DNA from: Acidimicrobiales bacterium
Lineage (GTDB): Bacteria; Actinomycetota; Acidimicrobiia; Acidimicrobiales; Iamiaceae
Length of the DNA stretch: 64,000 nucleotides
Direction of reading: 5' to 3'
NCBI GenBank assembly: GCA_030447445.1
Contig: JAUJOW010000009.1
Span: 1-64,000 of the forward strand
The notes beneath the pieces are model-generated. The model saw only the letters and a program-made list of their open reading frames with translations, was not told the origin of the DNA and did no database searches. A program made the position numbers and the translations under genes. Each line of letters starts with the position of its first letter. The stretch's first letter is position 1. Positions 26,869 to 45,605 of this stretch are shown piece by piece.

Positions 26869-26943
26869 TGGCGCCCTCGGCAGGACTCGAACCTGCGCAC
26901 ACGGCTCCGGAGGCCGATGCTCTATCCGCTGAGCTACGAGGGC
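26869..26943 (-). tRNA. tRNA-Arg(CCG)
   Basis: On the minus strand the 7-bp acceptor stem GCCCTCG/CGAGGGC, a D-arm GCTC-AGCGGATA-GAGC, the anticodon loop CTCCGGA (anticodon CCG) and a T-arm GCAGG-TTCGAGT-CCTGC fold into a complete cloverleaf. The discriminator is G and CCA is encoded (26869-26871). The outermost anticodon-stem pair appears to be a T-T mismatch. It decodes CGG, an abundant Arg codon at this GC content. Confidence 0.93.
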
Positions 26944-29013: not shown

Positions 29014-30278
29014 CCACGTTCCCCCGGTACCTGTTGCCCGACACCGCGGTGGTGGGCGACGACGGCTGGTTGGTCATCGGCGGCTGCCACACCGGTGAGC
29101 TGGCCGCCCGCTTCGGTACGCCGCTGTTCGTGTACGACGAGACCCACCTCCGGGCGCGGTGCCGGGAGGCCGTGGCCGCCTTCGGCGACGGCGTGGCCTA
29201 CGCCACCAAGGCGTTCCTGTGCCGGGCCATGGCCGAGCTGGCGGTGGCCGAGGGCATGTCCCTCGACGTGGCCACCGAAGGCGAGCTCCACGTGGCGCTC
29301 GCCGCTGGCGCCGACCCCGGTCGCCTCGTGCTCCACGGCAACAACAAGAGCGACGCCGAGCTGCGCCGGGCCCGAGAGGTGGGCGTGGGCCGCACCGTGG
29401 TCGACTCCTTCGACGAGATGGACCGCCTCGACCGGCTCCACCGCGCCGACGGCCGGGTGCCCAAGGTGCTCGTGCGGGTCACGCCCGGCATCGAGGCCCA
29501 CACCCACGAGTACGTCCGCACCGGCCAGGACGACTCGAAGTTCGGGTTCACGCTGTCCACCGGTCGGGCCCACGCCGCCGTCGAGCGGGCCCGGGCGTCG
29601 CGCTCGGTCGAACTCGTGGGGGTGCACGTCCACATCGGGAGCCAGGTGTTCGTGGCCGACTTCTTCAGTGAGGCCGTGGCCGCCATCGCCCCGTTCTTCG
29701 AGCCGCTCGGGCTGCCCGAGCTGTCGATCGGCGGCGGGGTGGGCGTGGCCTACGTCGAGGGCGAGGCGGCGCCGAGCATTCCCGAGTGGGGGAAGGCGGT
29801 GCGGACGGCGTGCGCCGAGGCCGGCATCACCGCCCGGGTGACGGCCGAGCCTGGGCGGGCCATAGTGGCCGGCGCCGCCGTCACGCTGTACACGGTCGGT
29901 ACCGTGAAGGACCTGCCCGGCATCCGCACCTACGTGTCGGTCGACGGGGGCATGAGCGACAACCCCCGACCGGTGCTCTACGGCAGCGGGTACGAGACGT
30001 TCCTGGCCCGCGCCGTCGACGCCGACCGGACCCGCGTGGTCACGGTCGTCGGCAAGCACTGCGAGTCCGGCGACGTGCTGGTCCGGGACGCTCGGCTTCC
30101 CGCTGACCTGGCCGTCGGCGACGTGATGGCCACTCCGGTCACCGGCGCCTACGGCCACTCGATGGGATCCAACTACAACAAGGTGCCCCGTCCCCCAGTG
30201 GTCTTCGTCGCCGACGGTGACGCCCGGTTGGTCGTCCGCAGGGAAACCCTCGACGACCTGCTGCGACTCGATCGCTGA
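29010..30278 (+). CDS. lysA: Diaminopimelate decarboxylase
   Basis: A 422-residue PLP enzyme (fold type III) that converts meso-diaminopimelate to L-lysine. The PLP lysine is in VAYATKAFLC (Lys about 66), with GVHVHIGSQV, SIGGGVGVAY (phosphate-binding glycines), TAEPGRAIVAGA, the active-site cysteine in VGKHCESGDVL, and TGAYGHSMGSNYN. The GTG at 29010 overlaps the argS stop. argS-lysA-hom-thrC is a typical actinobacterial order linking the aspartate-family pathways. Confidence 0.94.
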   Translation: MTTFPRYLLPDTAVVGDDGWLVIGGCHTGELAARFGTPLFVYDETHLRARCREAVAAFGDGVAYATKAFLCRAMAELAVAEGMSLDVATEGELHVALAAGADPGRLVLHGNNKSDAELRRAREVGVGRTVVDSFDEMDRLDRLHRADGRVPKVLVRVTPGIEAHTHEYVRTGQDDSKFGFTLSTGRAHAAVERARASRSVELVGVHVHIGSQVFVADFFSEAVAAIAPFFEPLGLPELSIGGGVGVAYVEGEAAPSIPEWGKAVRTACAEAGITARVTAEPGRAIVAGAAVTLYTVGTVKDLPGIRTYVSVDGGMSDNPRPVLYGSGYETFLARAVDADRTRVVTVVGKHCESGDVLVRDARLPADLAVGDVMATPVTGAYGHSMGSNYNKVPRPPVVFVADGDARLVVRRETLDDLLRLDR

Positions 30279-30329
30279 TCTATCGCCGTCACTCGTTCGC
30301 TGCGCTCACTCCGTTCCGGCGAGCTTGAG

Positions 30330-30421
30330 GACGGCGCCTGTGGCGCCGTCGTCTCTCGGTCGGTCGACCAGCCAAGCTGGATCGACCGGCGCGCCGAGGG
30401 GGCCGGCGGAGCCGCCCCCTC
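30330..30421. terminator. Array of three GC hairpins between lysA and hom
   Basis: Three consecutive stem-loops occur in ~90 nt. GACGGCGCC-TGT-GGCGCCGTC is at 30330-30350. CGGTCGACCAGC-CAA-GCTGGATCGACCG, with one bulge, is at 30361-30388. A GAGGGGGC...CCCCCTC stem with one bulge is at 30396-30421. No U-tract follows. They may terminate lysA transcription, form a structured leader, or be a repeat element: the flank GAGTGAGCGCAGCGAACGAG (minus strand, near 30300) recalls the repeats before rho and rpiB. Confidence 0.5.
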
Positions 30422-30469
30422 GGGCACCCCCCACTGCGAACGAGTAATGGCGGACGTGTACGGCATCGG

Positions 30470-30475
30470 TACCGT
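30470..30475 (+). promoter_or_regulatory. -10 element TACCGT, leaderless promoter of hom
   Basis: TACCGT ends 6 nt before the hom GTG at 30482, indicating that hom has its own promoter downstream of the hairpin array. Confidence 0.45.
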
Positions 30476-30481
30476 AGCGGG

Positions 30482-31762
30482 GTGGACGGGTCGGTGGTGC
30501 GGGTTGGTGTGCTGGGGTGCGGCAACGTGGGCGCCGCGCTCGTCGAGCTGTTGCGCACCCAGGGCGACGAGATCGGTGCCCGCACCGGTGTGCGCATCGA
30601 GGTGGTGCGGGTGGCCGTGCGCAGCCTGTCCCGGGAGCGGCCGGTGGTGCTGCCCGAGGACGTGCTGACCAACGACGCCGCCGCCGTCGTGGCCGACCCC
30701 TCGGTCGACGTGATCGTCGAGGTGATCGGCGGCATCGAACCGGCCCGCGAGCTGATCACCGCCGCCCTGAAGTCCGGCAAGCCCGTGGTCACGGCCAACA
30801 AGGAGCTGCTGGCCAACGTCGGTGCCGAGCTGTTCGAGGTGGCCGAAGCGGCCGGGGTGGACCTGCTGTTCGAGGCAGCCGTGGCCGGGGGGGTCCCCTT
30901 CATCCGCCCGCTGCGGGAGTCGCTGGTGGGGGAGCGCATCCACCGGGTGATCGGCATCGTGAACGGCACCACCAACTACATCCTCACCCGCATGACCGAG
31001 GACGGCGTGTCGTACCAGGCCGCCCTCGCCGAGGCCCAGAGCCTCGGCTACGCCGAGCGCGACCCCACCGCCGACGTCGAGGGCTACGACGCCGGGGCGA
31101 AGGCCGCCATCATCGCCTCCATCGCCTTCGGCGTGCGGGTGGTGGCCGGCGACGTGTACCACGAGGGCATCTCCGGGCTCACCCCCGCCGACATCGGTTT
31201 CGCCACCCGGCTCGGCTACGTGGTCAAGCTGCTGGCCGTGGCCGAGCTCATCGACGGAGAGGTCGGCGTGCGAGTCCACCCGGCCATGGTCCCGGCCACC
31301 CACCCCCTGGCCAGCGTGCGCGACAGCTACAACGCCCTCTTCGTCGAGGGCGAGTCGGTGGGCAACCTCATGTTCTACGGGCGGGGAGCGGGAGGCCGGC
31401 CCACGGCCAGCGCCGTGCTGGGCGACCTCATCGACGCCGCCGGCAACCTCCGCCGGGGGGCGCACGCCACCATCGGGTCCCTGACCAAGGCCCGCATCCG
31501 ACCCGTCGACGACGCCACCTCCGAGTACTACCTGAACGTCGAGGTGGCCGACCGCCCCGGCGTGCTGGCCGCCGTGGCCGGAGCGTTCGGGCGCCACGGC
31601 GTGTCCATCCGGGCCATGGAGCAGGAGGGCCTGGGGGACGAGGCTCGCATCGTGTTCATCACCCACACCGCCCGTGAGGCCGACATGGCCGCCACGTTGG
31701 CCGGGCTGCGAGAGCTCGACGCCGTCGACCGGGTGGTGTCCCTCCTCCGGGTCGTCTCGTGA
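30482..31762 (+). CDS. hom: Homoserine dehydrogenase with C-terminal ACT domain
   Basis: A 426-residue NAD(P)-dependent enzyme reducing aspartate semialdehyde to homoserine. The nucleotide-binding loop is VGVLGCGNVGAALV, followed by VTANKELLA, EAAVAGGVPFIRPL, GIVNGTTNYILT and GYAERDPTADVEGYDAGAKAAI, all family signatures. A regulatory ACT domain (LNVEVADRPGVLAAVAGAFG) begins near residue 348 and probably gives feedback inhibition by threonine. The GTG at 30482 has a -10 box 6 nt upstream. thrC follows after a 10-nt gap tiled by a micro-ORF. Confidence 0.95.
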   Translation: MDGSVVRVGVLGCGNVGAALVELLRTQGDEIGARTGVRIEVVRVAVRSLSRERPVVLPEDVLTNDAAAVVADPSVDVIVEVIGGIEPARELITAALKSGKPVVTANKELLANVGAELFEVAEAAGVDLLFEAAVAGGVPFIRPLRESLVGERIHRVIGIVNGTTNYILTRMTEDGVSYQAALAEAQSLGYAERDPTADVEGYDAGAKAAIIASIAFGVRVVAGDVYHEGISGLTPADIGFATRLGYVVKLLAVAELIDGEVGVRVHPAMVPATHPLASVRDSYNALFVEGESVGNLMFYGRGAGGRPTASAVLGDLIDAAGNLRRGAHATIGSLTKARIRPVDDATSEYYLNVEVADRPGVLAAVAGAFGRHGVSIRAMEQEGLGDEARIVFITHTAREADMAATLAGLRELDAVDRVVSLLRVVS

Positions 31763-34835: not shown

Positions 34836-35135
34836 GCGCGGCACTGAAGTAGGGAGCCGACAGCCTCGGGCCGGCTTGAGCCCGTCGTCGGCGGGGTGGC
34901 TACACTGAGGCCCTCCCCAGCGAGTCGGTGACCGATCGCTGCGGAGCACCTGACGGGGTTTCCCTCCACGCCGATCGGCTGCGCACCGTCTGCGCGCGCC
35001 GGGACCCCGAGGCTCGCACCCCGATTGAAGCGAGGTAGCACCGTTGAGTGAGCCGCAGGCGAGCGAACCAGAAGGAACGGCGGCGGTTCGCCCCGTAGGG
35101 GCGAGGCTCATCGGCGCGGACCGAAGGGAGCACCG
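34836..35135 (+). other. rho leader region (300 bp)
   Basis: There is no full-size gene. It holds a candidate sigma70-type promoter (34876-34906), a GC-rich stretch, and from 35044 a 31-codon mini-ORF coinciding with a structured repeat that ends at the rho start codon. Long leaders are common for rho genes, which are often autoregulated. Confidence 0.5.
34876..34906 (+). promoter_or_regulatory. rho: Candidate promoter of rho (TTGAGC-N19-TACACT)
   Basis: TTGAGC (34876-34881) and TACACT (34901-34906), separated by 19 nt, make a reasonable -35/-10 pair. This would give a leader of about 220 nt before the rho ATG. Confidence 0.4.
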
Positions 35136-44869: not shown

Positions 44870-45436
44870 ATCGAGATCCTCTTCCTGTGCACCGGCAACA
44901 TCTGCCGCTCCCCGATGGCCGAGGCTCTCCTTCGCCACCGCATGGAGCAACTGGGCGTGGTGGCCACCGTGTACTCGGCCGGCCTCCTGTACGACGACGC
45001 GCCGCCCTCGGCCGGTGCGGTGGAGGTCCTCGAGCGTCGGGGTGTCGACCTCAGCGCGCACCGCAGCCGCATCATGCGGCCCGACGAGGTGGCCACGGCC
45101 GACCTCGTGCTGGCCATGGCCCGCATGCACCTGCGGGAGGCCGTGGTCATGGTCCCGAGGCGGTTCGGCCACATCTTCACGCTGAAGGAGCTCGTGCGCC
45201 GGGCCGAGCAGGTCGGCCCCCGTGTCGAGGAGTCCTTCGAGGACTGGCTCGCCCGAGTCGGGTTCGGTCGCCGCACGGTGGAGTTCCTCGGCGAGTCACC
45301 CGAGGACGACATCGCCGACCCGATCGGCCAGTCGGTGGCCACCTACGACCGCACCGCCGCCGAGCTCGACGACCTCGTGGCCCGCCTCTGCGCCCTCGTG
45401 TGGAGCCGGGCTGCTCGGGAGGTGCGCCACGCATGA
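44870..45436 (+). CDS. Low-molecular-weight protein-tyrosine phosphatase, apparent ATC start
   Basis: A ~188-residue LMW-PTP that dephosphorylates phosphotyrosine or phosphoarginine-like substrates. The P-loop LFLCTGNICRSPMAEALL has Cys7 and Arg13, and the general-acid DPIGQSVATYDRTAAELD is at the C-terminus. No ATG, GTG or TTG precedes the P-loop in frame; the conserved sequence begins at ATC (44870), which lies 7 nt after a TACAAT box, the typical leaderless spacing. A start at the later ATG (44915) would remove the P-loop. Either AUC initiates or there is a base error. Its stop overlaps a mini-ORF leading to rpiB. Confidence 0.8.
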   Translation: MEILFLCTGNICRSPMAEALLRHRMEQLGVVATVYSAGLLYDDAPPSAGAVEVLERRGVDLSAHRSRIMRPDEVATADLVLAMARMHLREAVVMVPRRFGHIFTLKELVRRAEQVGPRVEESFEDWLARVGFGRRTVEFLGESPEDDIADPIGQSVATYDRTAAELDDLVARLCALVWSRAAREVRHA

Positions 45437-45564
45437 GCGAGCCGGCAGGGCGAGCGAACCAGACAGAACGGGTGGTCTCGCCGCGAAGCGGCGAGCGCTC
45501 ATTGGTGCCACCTCGATCTGACGAGACGGGGCGTGGACTCACAAGGCGGAGGGTGCACCAATGA
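45433..45564 (+). CDS. 43-residue mini-ORF within the SEP-type repeat (phosphatase-rpiB junction)
   Basis: ATG at 45433 overlaps the phosphatase stop as ATGA. The frame reads MSEPAGRANQTERVVSPRSG, and on to TRRRVHQ, and ends by overlapping the next ATG at 45561. It is Arg-rich and low in hydrophobics. At DNA level it resembles the element before rho: a conserved core, a CTCGCCGC-GAA-GCGGCGAG hairpin (45477-45495), then GCTCATTGGTGC (45497-45508) paired to GCACCAATGAGC (45555-45566). The two encoded peptides differ in frame, so the DNA or RNA structure rather than the peptide is conserved. Confidence 0.4.
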   Translation: MSEPAGRANQTERVVSPRSGERSLVPPRSDETGRGLTRRRVHQ

Positions 45565-45605
45565 GCGAGCCGCAGGCGAGCGAAGCAGACGGTGTGCGCC
45601 GGTGA
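45561..45605 (+). other. 14-residue mini-[17 protein letters not shown] before rpiB
   Basis: ATG at 45561 overlaps the stop of the 43-residue frame, and its TGA overlaps the rpiB GTG at 45602 as GTGA. Its first 30 nt repeat the SEP core (25 of 27 bases match the copy before rho). Its ATG lies in the right arm of the 12-bp inverted repeat. Confidence 0.4.

Follow-up and report, generated by a model that had tools for sequence, protein, structure and literature searches.

The hairpin-rich region between lysA and hom in the window—by which we mean the whole 64,000-nt stretch of DNA under analysis—is probably a copy of a mobile hairpin repeat, REP/MITE-like, dispersed and non-autonomous, that resides in 3' untranslated regions (3' UTRs). 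The element consists of a conserved 47-nt head followed by lineage-specific GC-rich hairpins. The repeat is dispersed, the pairing within its head covaries, its copies are placed tightly and in an oriented manner at stop codons, and the same junctions in relatives are devoid of it. If the reading holds, it would add to the dispersed hairpin repeats an actinobacterial one with a near-fixed stop-codon placement, and without the RAYT linked to REPs; its sense orientation in most carriers and the strict Watson-Crick covariation around GA/GA steps are further uncommon traits.

The element between lysA and hom

The lysA gene ends with a TGA stop codon at positions 30276–30278, the anchor of the element, and hom starts at 30482, so that 203 nt lie between the two. 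In 14 relatives the lysA alignment reached residue 423 or 415 of the 424, from which we conclude that the C-terminus of lysA is unchanged. On the same plus strand, the conserved head occupies a 47-nt box at 30280–30326, to which our covariance model R1 assigned 71.7 bits and within which the pairing covaries. The head hairpin itself spans 30283–30322, its outer stem being formed by 30283–30288 with 30317–30322, inside which 2-bp steps alternate with pyrimidine-pyrimidine mismatches; these steps of the sense strand are therefore GA/GA on the bottom strand, where the purine-rich head segment (30292–30311, minus strand) constitutes the motif GAGTGAGCGCAGCGAACGAG, with GA/GA mismatches in tandem and GCGNAGC at the apex. 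Further along the plus strand are hairpin 2 (30327–30353), with 12-nt arms that are 92% complementary and a 3-nt loop; hairpin 3 (30361–30388), with the 3-nt loop CAA and a bulged A at 30381; and hairpin 4 (30394–30423), with a perfect 10-bp outer stem and the inner sequence GGCGGAGCC, which hairpin is followed by GGCACCCCCC without any T-run. A left inverted arm at 30284–30300 is complementary in 15 of 17 positions (88%) to a right inverted arm at 30436–30452, close to where the element ends on its 3' side.

An earlier, sequence-only reading of this DNA had described three GC hairpins within 30290–30425, preceded by a minus-strand motif. The hairpins do lie there and the structure is real, although there are four of them—the minus-strand motif being part of an additional one, the head—and, since the 17-nt inverted arms enclose the whole, the element extends beyond 30425 to about 30452. 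Where that reading had claimed two stems of at least 9 bp, we found such stems in hairpins 2, 3 and 4 alike. The sense strand from 30280 to 30435, folded as RNA, had a minimum free energy of -90.3 kcal/mol, compared with -71.75 ± 4.18 kcal/mol in dinucleotide shuffles (z -4.44, with none of the 200 reaching it), and the bottom strand from 30280 to 30455, folded as DNA, reached a z of -7.0, likewise with 0 of 200 shuffles as good.

The sequence-only reading had also maintained that the region was not simply the 5' UTR of hom, a point that we can uphold: the -10-like hexamer TACCGT lies at 30470–30475 on the plus strand, outside the element. Similar hexamers were seen by eye shortly 5' of hom in relatives that have a short lysA-hom gap and lack the element. 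The comparison suggests a leaderless hom promoter at the TACCGT-like hexamer, both in the window's own genome and in the short-gap relatives; a scan with consensus promoters found no promoter at the hom hexamer.

Dispersal of the repeat and covariation of its head

The assembly of the window's own genome (G000) is 86% complete and comprises 37 contigs. The model R1 was built from the 33 heads of alignment A1, for which 38 heads had been found, four truncated and one divergent head being dropped; with this model, and 150 candidates scored, seven heads with E<1e-3 were detected in the own genome. Searching that genome at the DNA level gave one copy that is 88% identical over nearly the whole element and stands behind another gene, a second copy that is 73% identical over most of the element, and shorter ones. 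In a first survey, in which at most 14 candidates were scored per genome, matches occurred in 23 of 61 genomes, the own included, while in a sample of the order R1 found heads in 43 of 198 genomes at E<=0.01 and in 25 of 198 at E<1e-6. A draw across the phylum yielded 14 of 396 genomes at E<=1e-3, the matches outside the order being weak (best 4.8e-6). An exact 28-mer scan of named genomes retrieved 46 stretches, every title of which belonged to Actinomycetota or a group within it: Acidimicrobiales, Acidimicrobiia, Ilumatobacter, Aquihabitans (including Aquihabitans sp. G128) and one "Actinomycetes bacterium".

One genome, G135, contains at least 52 left ends, of which 37 are identical across 44 nt, and 50 right ends, counted with up to 3 mismatches. 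The unit amplified there is an element of about 205 bp that starts with the same head (e.g., L153, L192, L285), and its amplification is recent; some contigs of that genome terminate inside the element. CTAG stood at both ends in 13 of 22 G135 copies, as either a target-site duplication or part of the element ends, and preceded TGCC in 20 of the 22. Short inverted arms enclose the whole element in the window copy and in two other genomes, the inverted ends exceeding the controls in the window genome, G124 and G135; in G003, G068 and G063 such ends were no better than controls, on which account we rejected them as a general trait. In the 88% copy (L075/L002, G000:C21:69392), the two ends, GTTTCGCCGTCAC on the left and GTGACGGCGAAAC on the right, are exact inverses of each other, and the GTG start codon of a priA-like gene lies within the right one.

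The covariation of the head was assessed in two sets, with the kinship of the copies left in, so that the figures are not to be taken as probabilities. Among the 33 aligned heads, 88.1% of the cells paired versus 74.8% in shuffles, 58 cells were doubly changed versus 19.1 ± 3.3, and the covariation score was 0.365 versus 0.140 in shuffles and at most 0.144 upon sliding the 3' partners by 1–3 columns. The pairs changed on both sides (7 versus 6.2) and the pair types (17 versus 16.4) did not exceed the shuffles. Across the 120 distinct heads of the second set, the inner pair that is free to vary was C-G in 53, T-A in 48, G-C in 13, a wobble in 1 and mismatched in 5; it was thus Watson-Crick in 114 of 120, when independent columns would predict 47.5 Watson-Crick and 23.6 wobble pairs. 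The second head pair was C-G in 86, T-A in 33 and other in 1, the third A-T in 104, G-C in 13 and G-T in 3, and the outer stems averaged 5.5 pairs, compared with 4.1 when the partners were shuffled.

When 96 heads were constrained to the covarying structure, the bottom strand was the stabler in all of them, at -14.3 versus -7.7 kcal/mol for the sense strand as RNA, and at -3.2 versus -1.7 kcal/mol as DNA. That structure coincided with the minimum free energy fold in 58 of the 96 as bottom-strand RNA, in 24 as sense RNA, in 29 as bottom-strand DNA and in 8 as sense DNA; five heads folded singly failed to beat their shuffles (z -1.9 to +0.4). The scarcity of wobble pairs, along with the preferred bottom strand, suggests that the pairing is kept at the DNA level, and for these two reasons we favour a DNA hairpin over an RNA. 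Of the structured RNA that the sequence-only reading had contemplated, the conserved pairing stands, although the evidence points to DNA as the molecule that folds. That reading had further entertained a repeat family, to be given up should neither other copies nor conserved pairing appear; the genome search and the covariance analysis that it proposed were run, and since further copies exist in the own genome and in the order, and the head pairing is conserved and covaries, the repeat-family idea is retained.

The motif GCGNAGC/GCTNCGC is itself frequent, with 2.07 occurrences per 190-nt element, when shuffles have 0.46 and upstream coding DNA has 0.26; over the 150 nt that follow the head, the figures are 1.27 versus 0.32. 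Hairpin 3 resembles the head in design: in other genomes it has the same core with other outer arms, which arms change together. Its search pattern gave 14 matches, 10 of them with the bulged A and two of the other loci being counted on both strands, and because the pattern fixes the inner core, only the outer arms and the bulge are informative.

Placement at gene ends and the same junctions in relatives

To locate the copies with respect to genes, we called gene ends with a simple coding score, for which three genes of the window served as the training set. The set comprised 101 fetched copies from six genomes, second matches inside fetched loci being left out: 30 of at least 31 in G003, 20 of at least 32 in G124, 12 of at least 31 in G068, 8 of 16 in G063, all 7 in the own genome and 24 of at least 52 in G135. 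The head counts in G003, G068, G124 and G135 are lower bounds, with about 31 candidates scored per genome. In the 77 copies of the five genomes other than G135, the head started between -3 and +4 nt from the end of the sense-gene stop codon in 66 (25 of 30 in G003, 16 of 20 in G124, 12 of 12 in G068, 7 of 8 in G063 and 6 of 7 in the own genome). When stop triplets were counted regardless of frame, 63 of 70 heads had one adjacent to them, versus 7.3% of random positions in the same loci. As to orientation, 35 of the 77 copies lay in the sense direction between tandem genes and 2 in the antisense, with 38 between convergent genes, 1 between divergent ones and 1 unresolved. In G135, 9 of 24 heads touched a stop and the tandem orientation was mixed, 6 sense and 5 antisense.

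This placement directly behind stop codons suggests a small mobile element that settles at gene ends. The strong sense bias is nevertheless unexpected for neutral insertion, and counts against the reading of a mobile repeat. So do the mixed orientation and the few stop contacts in G135, the Y1_Tnp domain missing from 13 of 14 carriers tested, the absence of a long autonomous copy at six internal solo ends of G135, the lack of a visible target-site duplication in the window copy, inverted ends that beat the controls only in the window genome, G124 and G135, and the weak folding of single heads. The bias in G003, G068, G063 and the own genome, taken together with the mixed orientation in G135, could fit either insertion followed by selection or an oriented insertion.

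We then compared the junctions themselves. Of 23 hom loci, 8 were left out of the count—7 without lysA beside hom and one partial—and R1 detected the head in none of the 14 family relatives that have lysA beside hom, whose gap measured 23–135 nt in 11 and 788–872 nt in 3. The same held for the junction of metK and priA, the site of the 88% copy: the head was found in none of 18 relatives keeping the gene order, with 5 of 24 priA-type loci of relatives left out because the locus did not include the gene upstream. Nor did R1 find a head in the excluded hom or priA-type loci. Since two independent junctions are empty throughout the relatives, a gain of the element at lysA-hom and at metK-priA in the own genome is to be favoured, on this comparison of sequences, over losses elsewhere. 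Behind metK, several of the element-free relatives have a simple GC hairpin as judged by eye, and a pattern confirmed it in 3 of 6 loci tried; this hairpin leaves room for a role at the transcript end.

Origin of the repeat, and its alternatives

As a mechanism for the mobile repeat, we propose that it would spread as DNA, with the bottom strand folding into 2-bp Watson-Crick steps and tandem GA/GA pairs under a GCGNAGC cap, and that a putative host or transposase enzyme would recognise this bottom-strand head hairpin. Copies would persist behind stop codons, the proposed reason being that nothing is disrupted there; a resident copy would be transcribed as a multi-hairpin 3' UTR, which structure may block read-through by the polymerase or 3' decay by nucleases. 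That coding-sequence ends direct and orient the insertion itself, thus providing genes with a portable multi-hairpin 3' end, appears to us doubtful. Should such directed insertion prove true, part of the gene ends in Acidimicrobiia-type genomes would be built from mobile DNA, and the hairpin alternating Watson-Crick steps with tandem GA/GA pairs would be the recognition signal of an undescribed enzyme. The reading of a mobile repeat makes testable the notion of a mobile DNA that targets gene ends, or is selected into them, as a ready-made 3' UTR, and it warns annotators that such "lysA-hom leaders" would be insertions.

One may instead regard the element as mainly a functional terminator or mRNA 3'-end stabiliser that is copied to gene ends and kept there by selection, in which proposal the head would mark the end of translation—for instance, as a binding site for Rho or for an RNA-binding protein—and polymerase or nucleases would be halted at the GC hairpins. 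We consider this account conceivable, if on the unlikely side. The start of the head within -3 to +4 nt of the stop in 66 of 77 copies, the 35 tandem sense against 2 antisense copies outside G135, and the strong tandem hairpins all speak for it, as does the GGGGCGGG..CCCGCCCC-type GC hairpin behind metK in element-free relatives, where the own genome has the element. Against it stand the lack of a U-tract, the weak folding of the head on the sense strand, a near absence of wobble at the covarying pairs that is unlike selection on an RNA helix, the patchy presence and the mixed orientation in G135. A terminator had likewise been among the suggestions of the sequence-only reading; with no U-tract, the element is not a canonical intrinsic terminator, and a scan of 29900–30900 for intrinsic terminators, that is for a GC stem with a T-run, found none. 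Like intrinsic terminators, the element has GC-rich stem-loops behind a stop codon, but it differs from them in the missing T-run, in having several hairpins and in a covarying head unrelated to termination. A terminator-like role may nonetheless be exerted by the element.

That the element belongs to a known class and is mobilised in a known manner, be it as a REP/BIME by a RAYT or as a MITE by a DDE insertion sequence that targets CTAG, seems improbable to us. In placement the REPs come nearest: they are, as described in PMC3733652, dispersed imperfect hairpins that stand mostly behind tandem or convergent genes, often at less than 20 bp from the 3' end, to which location the placement of our 77 copies corresponds; the paper treats GTAG and CGTC families, the termini of the GTAG REPs often giving a TAG stop. 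Some of the REPs tabulated in PMC2817692 contain GCGNAGC. Actinobacteria are absent from the main text of PMC3733652. The CTAG found at each end of 13 of the 22 G135 copies and the imperfect inverted ends in that genome likewise agree with a known class. The present element, however, measures some 150–205 bp, contains several hairpins and a GA/GA-rich head, and in the window copy the sequence that joins the stop to the stem is TGATCTATCGCC, with no GTAG head. The Y1_Tnp/RAYT domain (PF01797) was found in 2 of 25 genomes and was absent from 13 of the 14 element carriers tested, among which G010 alone has it, and a search of the 86% complete own genome for PF01797 gave none; RAYT was therefore rejected as the mobiliser. 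No target-site duplication was seen by eye in the window copy, and among twelve G135 stretches, several of which reached contig ends, none of six internal solo ends led to a long autonomous copy. With MITEs and repeat units of the ERIC type the element shares its non-autonomy, the inverted ends of some copies and the recent burst in G135, although here inverted ends are not general, the multi-hairpin interior is conserved and the anchoring at stops is sense-oriented.

The MIRUs of mycobacteria are equally short, mobile, intergenic actinobacterial repeats at codon boundaries, and are associated with a "DTGA site" description. According to PMC12548453, MIRUs insert at start codons and contain an ORF that is coupled at -4 nt; our element is anchored to a stop codon and ends at about 30452, and hom starts at 30482, 30 nt past the right arm, which facts set it apart by description. 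The literature searched yielded no description of the repeat, and six literal motif strings occurred in none of the papers covered.

That the region is a chance cluster of GC hairpins, or else a leader or riboswitch of hom, is scarcely credible. The genome is GC-rich and hairpins are common, but the shuffle controls were beaten, homologous copies stand behind other genes and hom occurs in relatives without the element. In addition, nothing came near an Rfam gathering score: over the window Rfam returned only a tRNA at 26872–26943, and a permissive search of 30150–30600 gave two matches, both far below their gathering scores.

The sequence-only reading had supposed that the region could be a third, diverged copy of a repeat near rho and rpiB, and this kinship we could not sustain. 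In the own genome, with 150 candidates scored, R1 had no match there at E<=10, and the rho motif—GAGTGAGCCGCAGGCGAGCGAACC at 35046–35069—has a partner of its own at 45563 with 2 mismatches. In the comparison, made with the head model R1 only, the rho/rpiB repeat shared with the head only GAGC..GCGA pieces, through which a remote link to that family is possible. The rpiB region (45420–45600) folds with a z of -3.2 and the rho region, at -0.75, is unremarkable. A related rho/rpiB-type stretch at 45437–45460 overlaps the TGA stop of the preceding ORF (44915–45436). Finally, G010 contains tandem arrays of a GCTCGCTGCGCTCGCT-type motif with spacings of 33 and 30 nt, at L071 (G010:C1:173232-173384) and at G010:C1:1715620-1715850.
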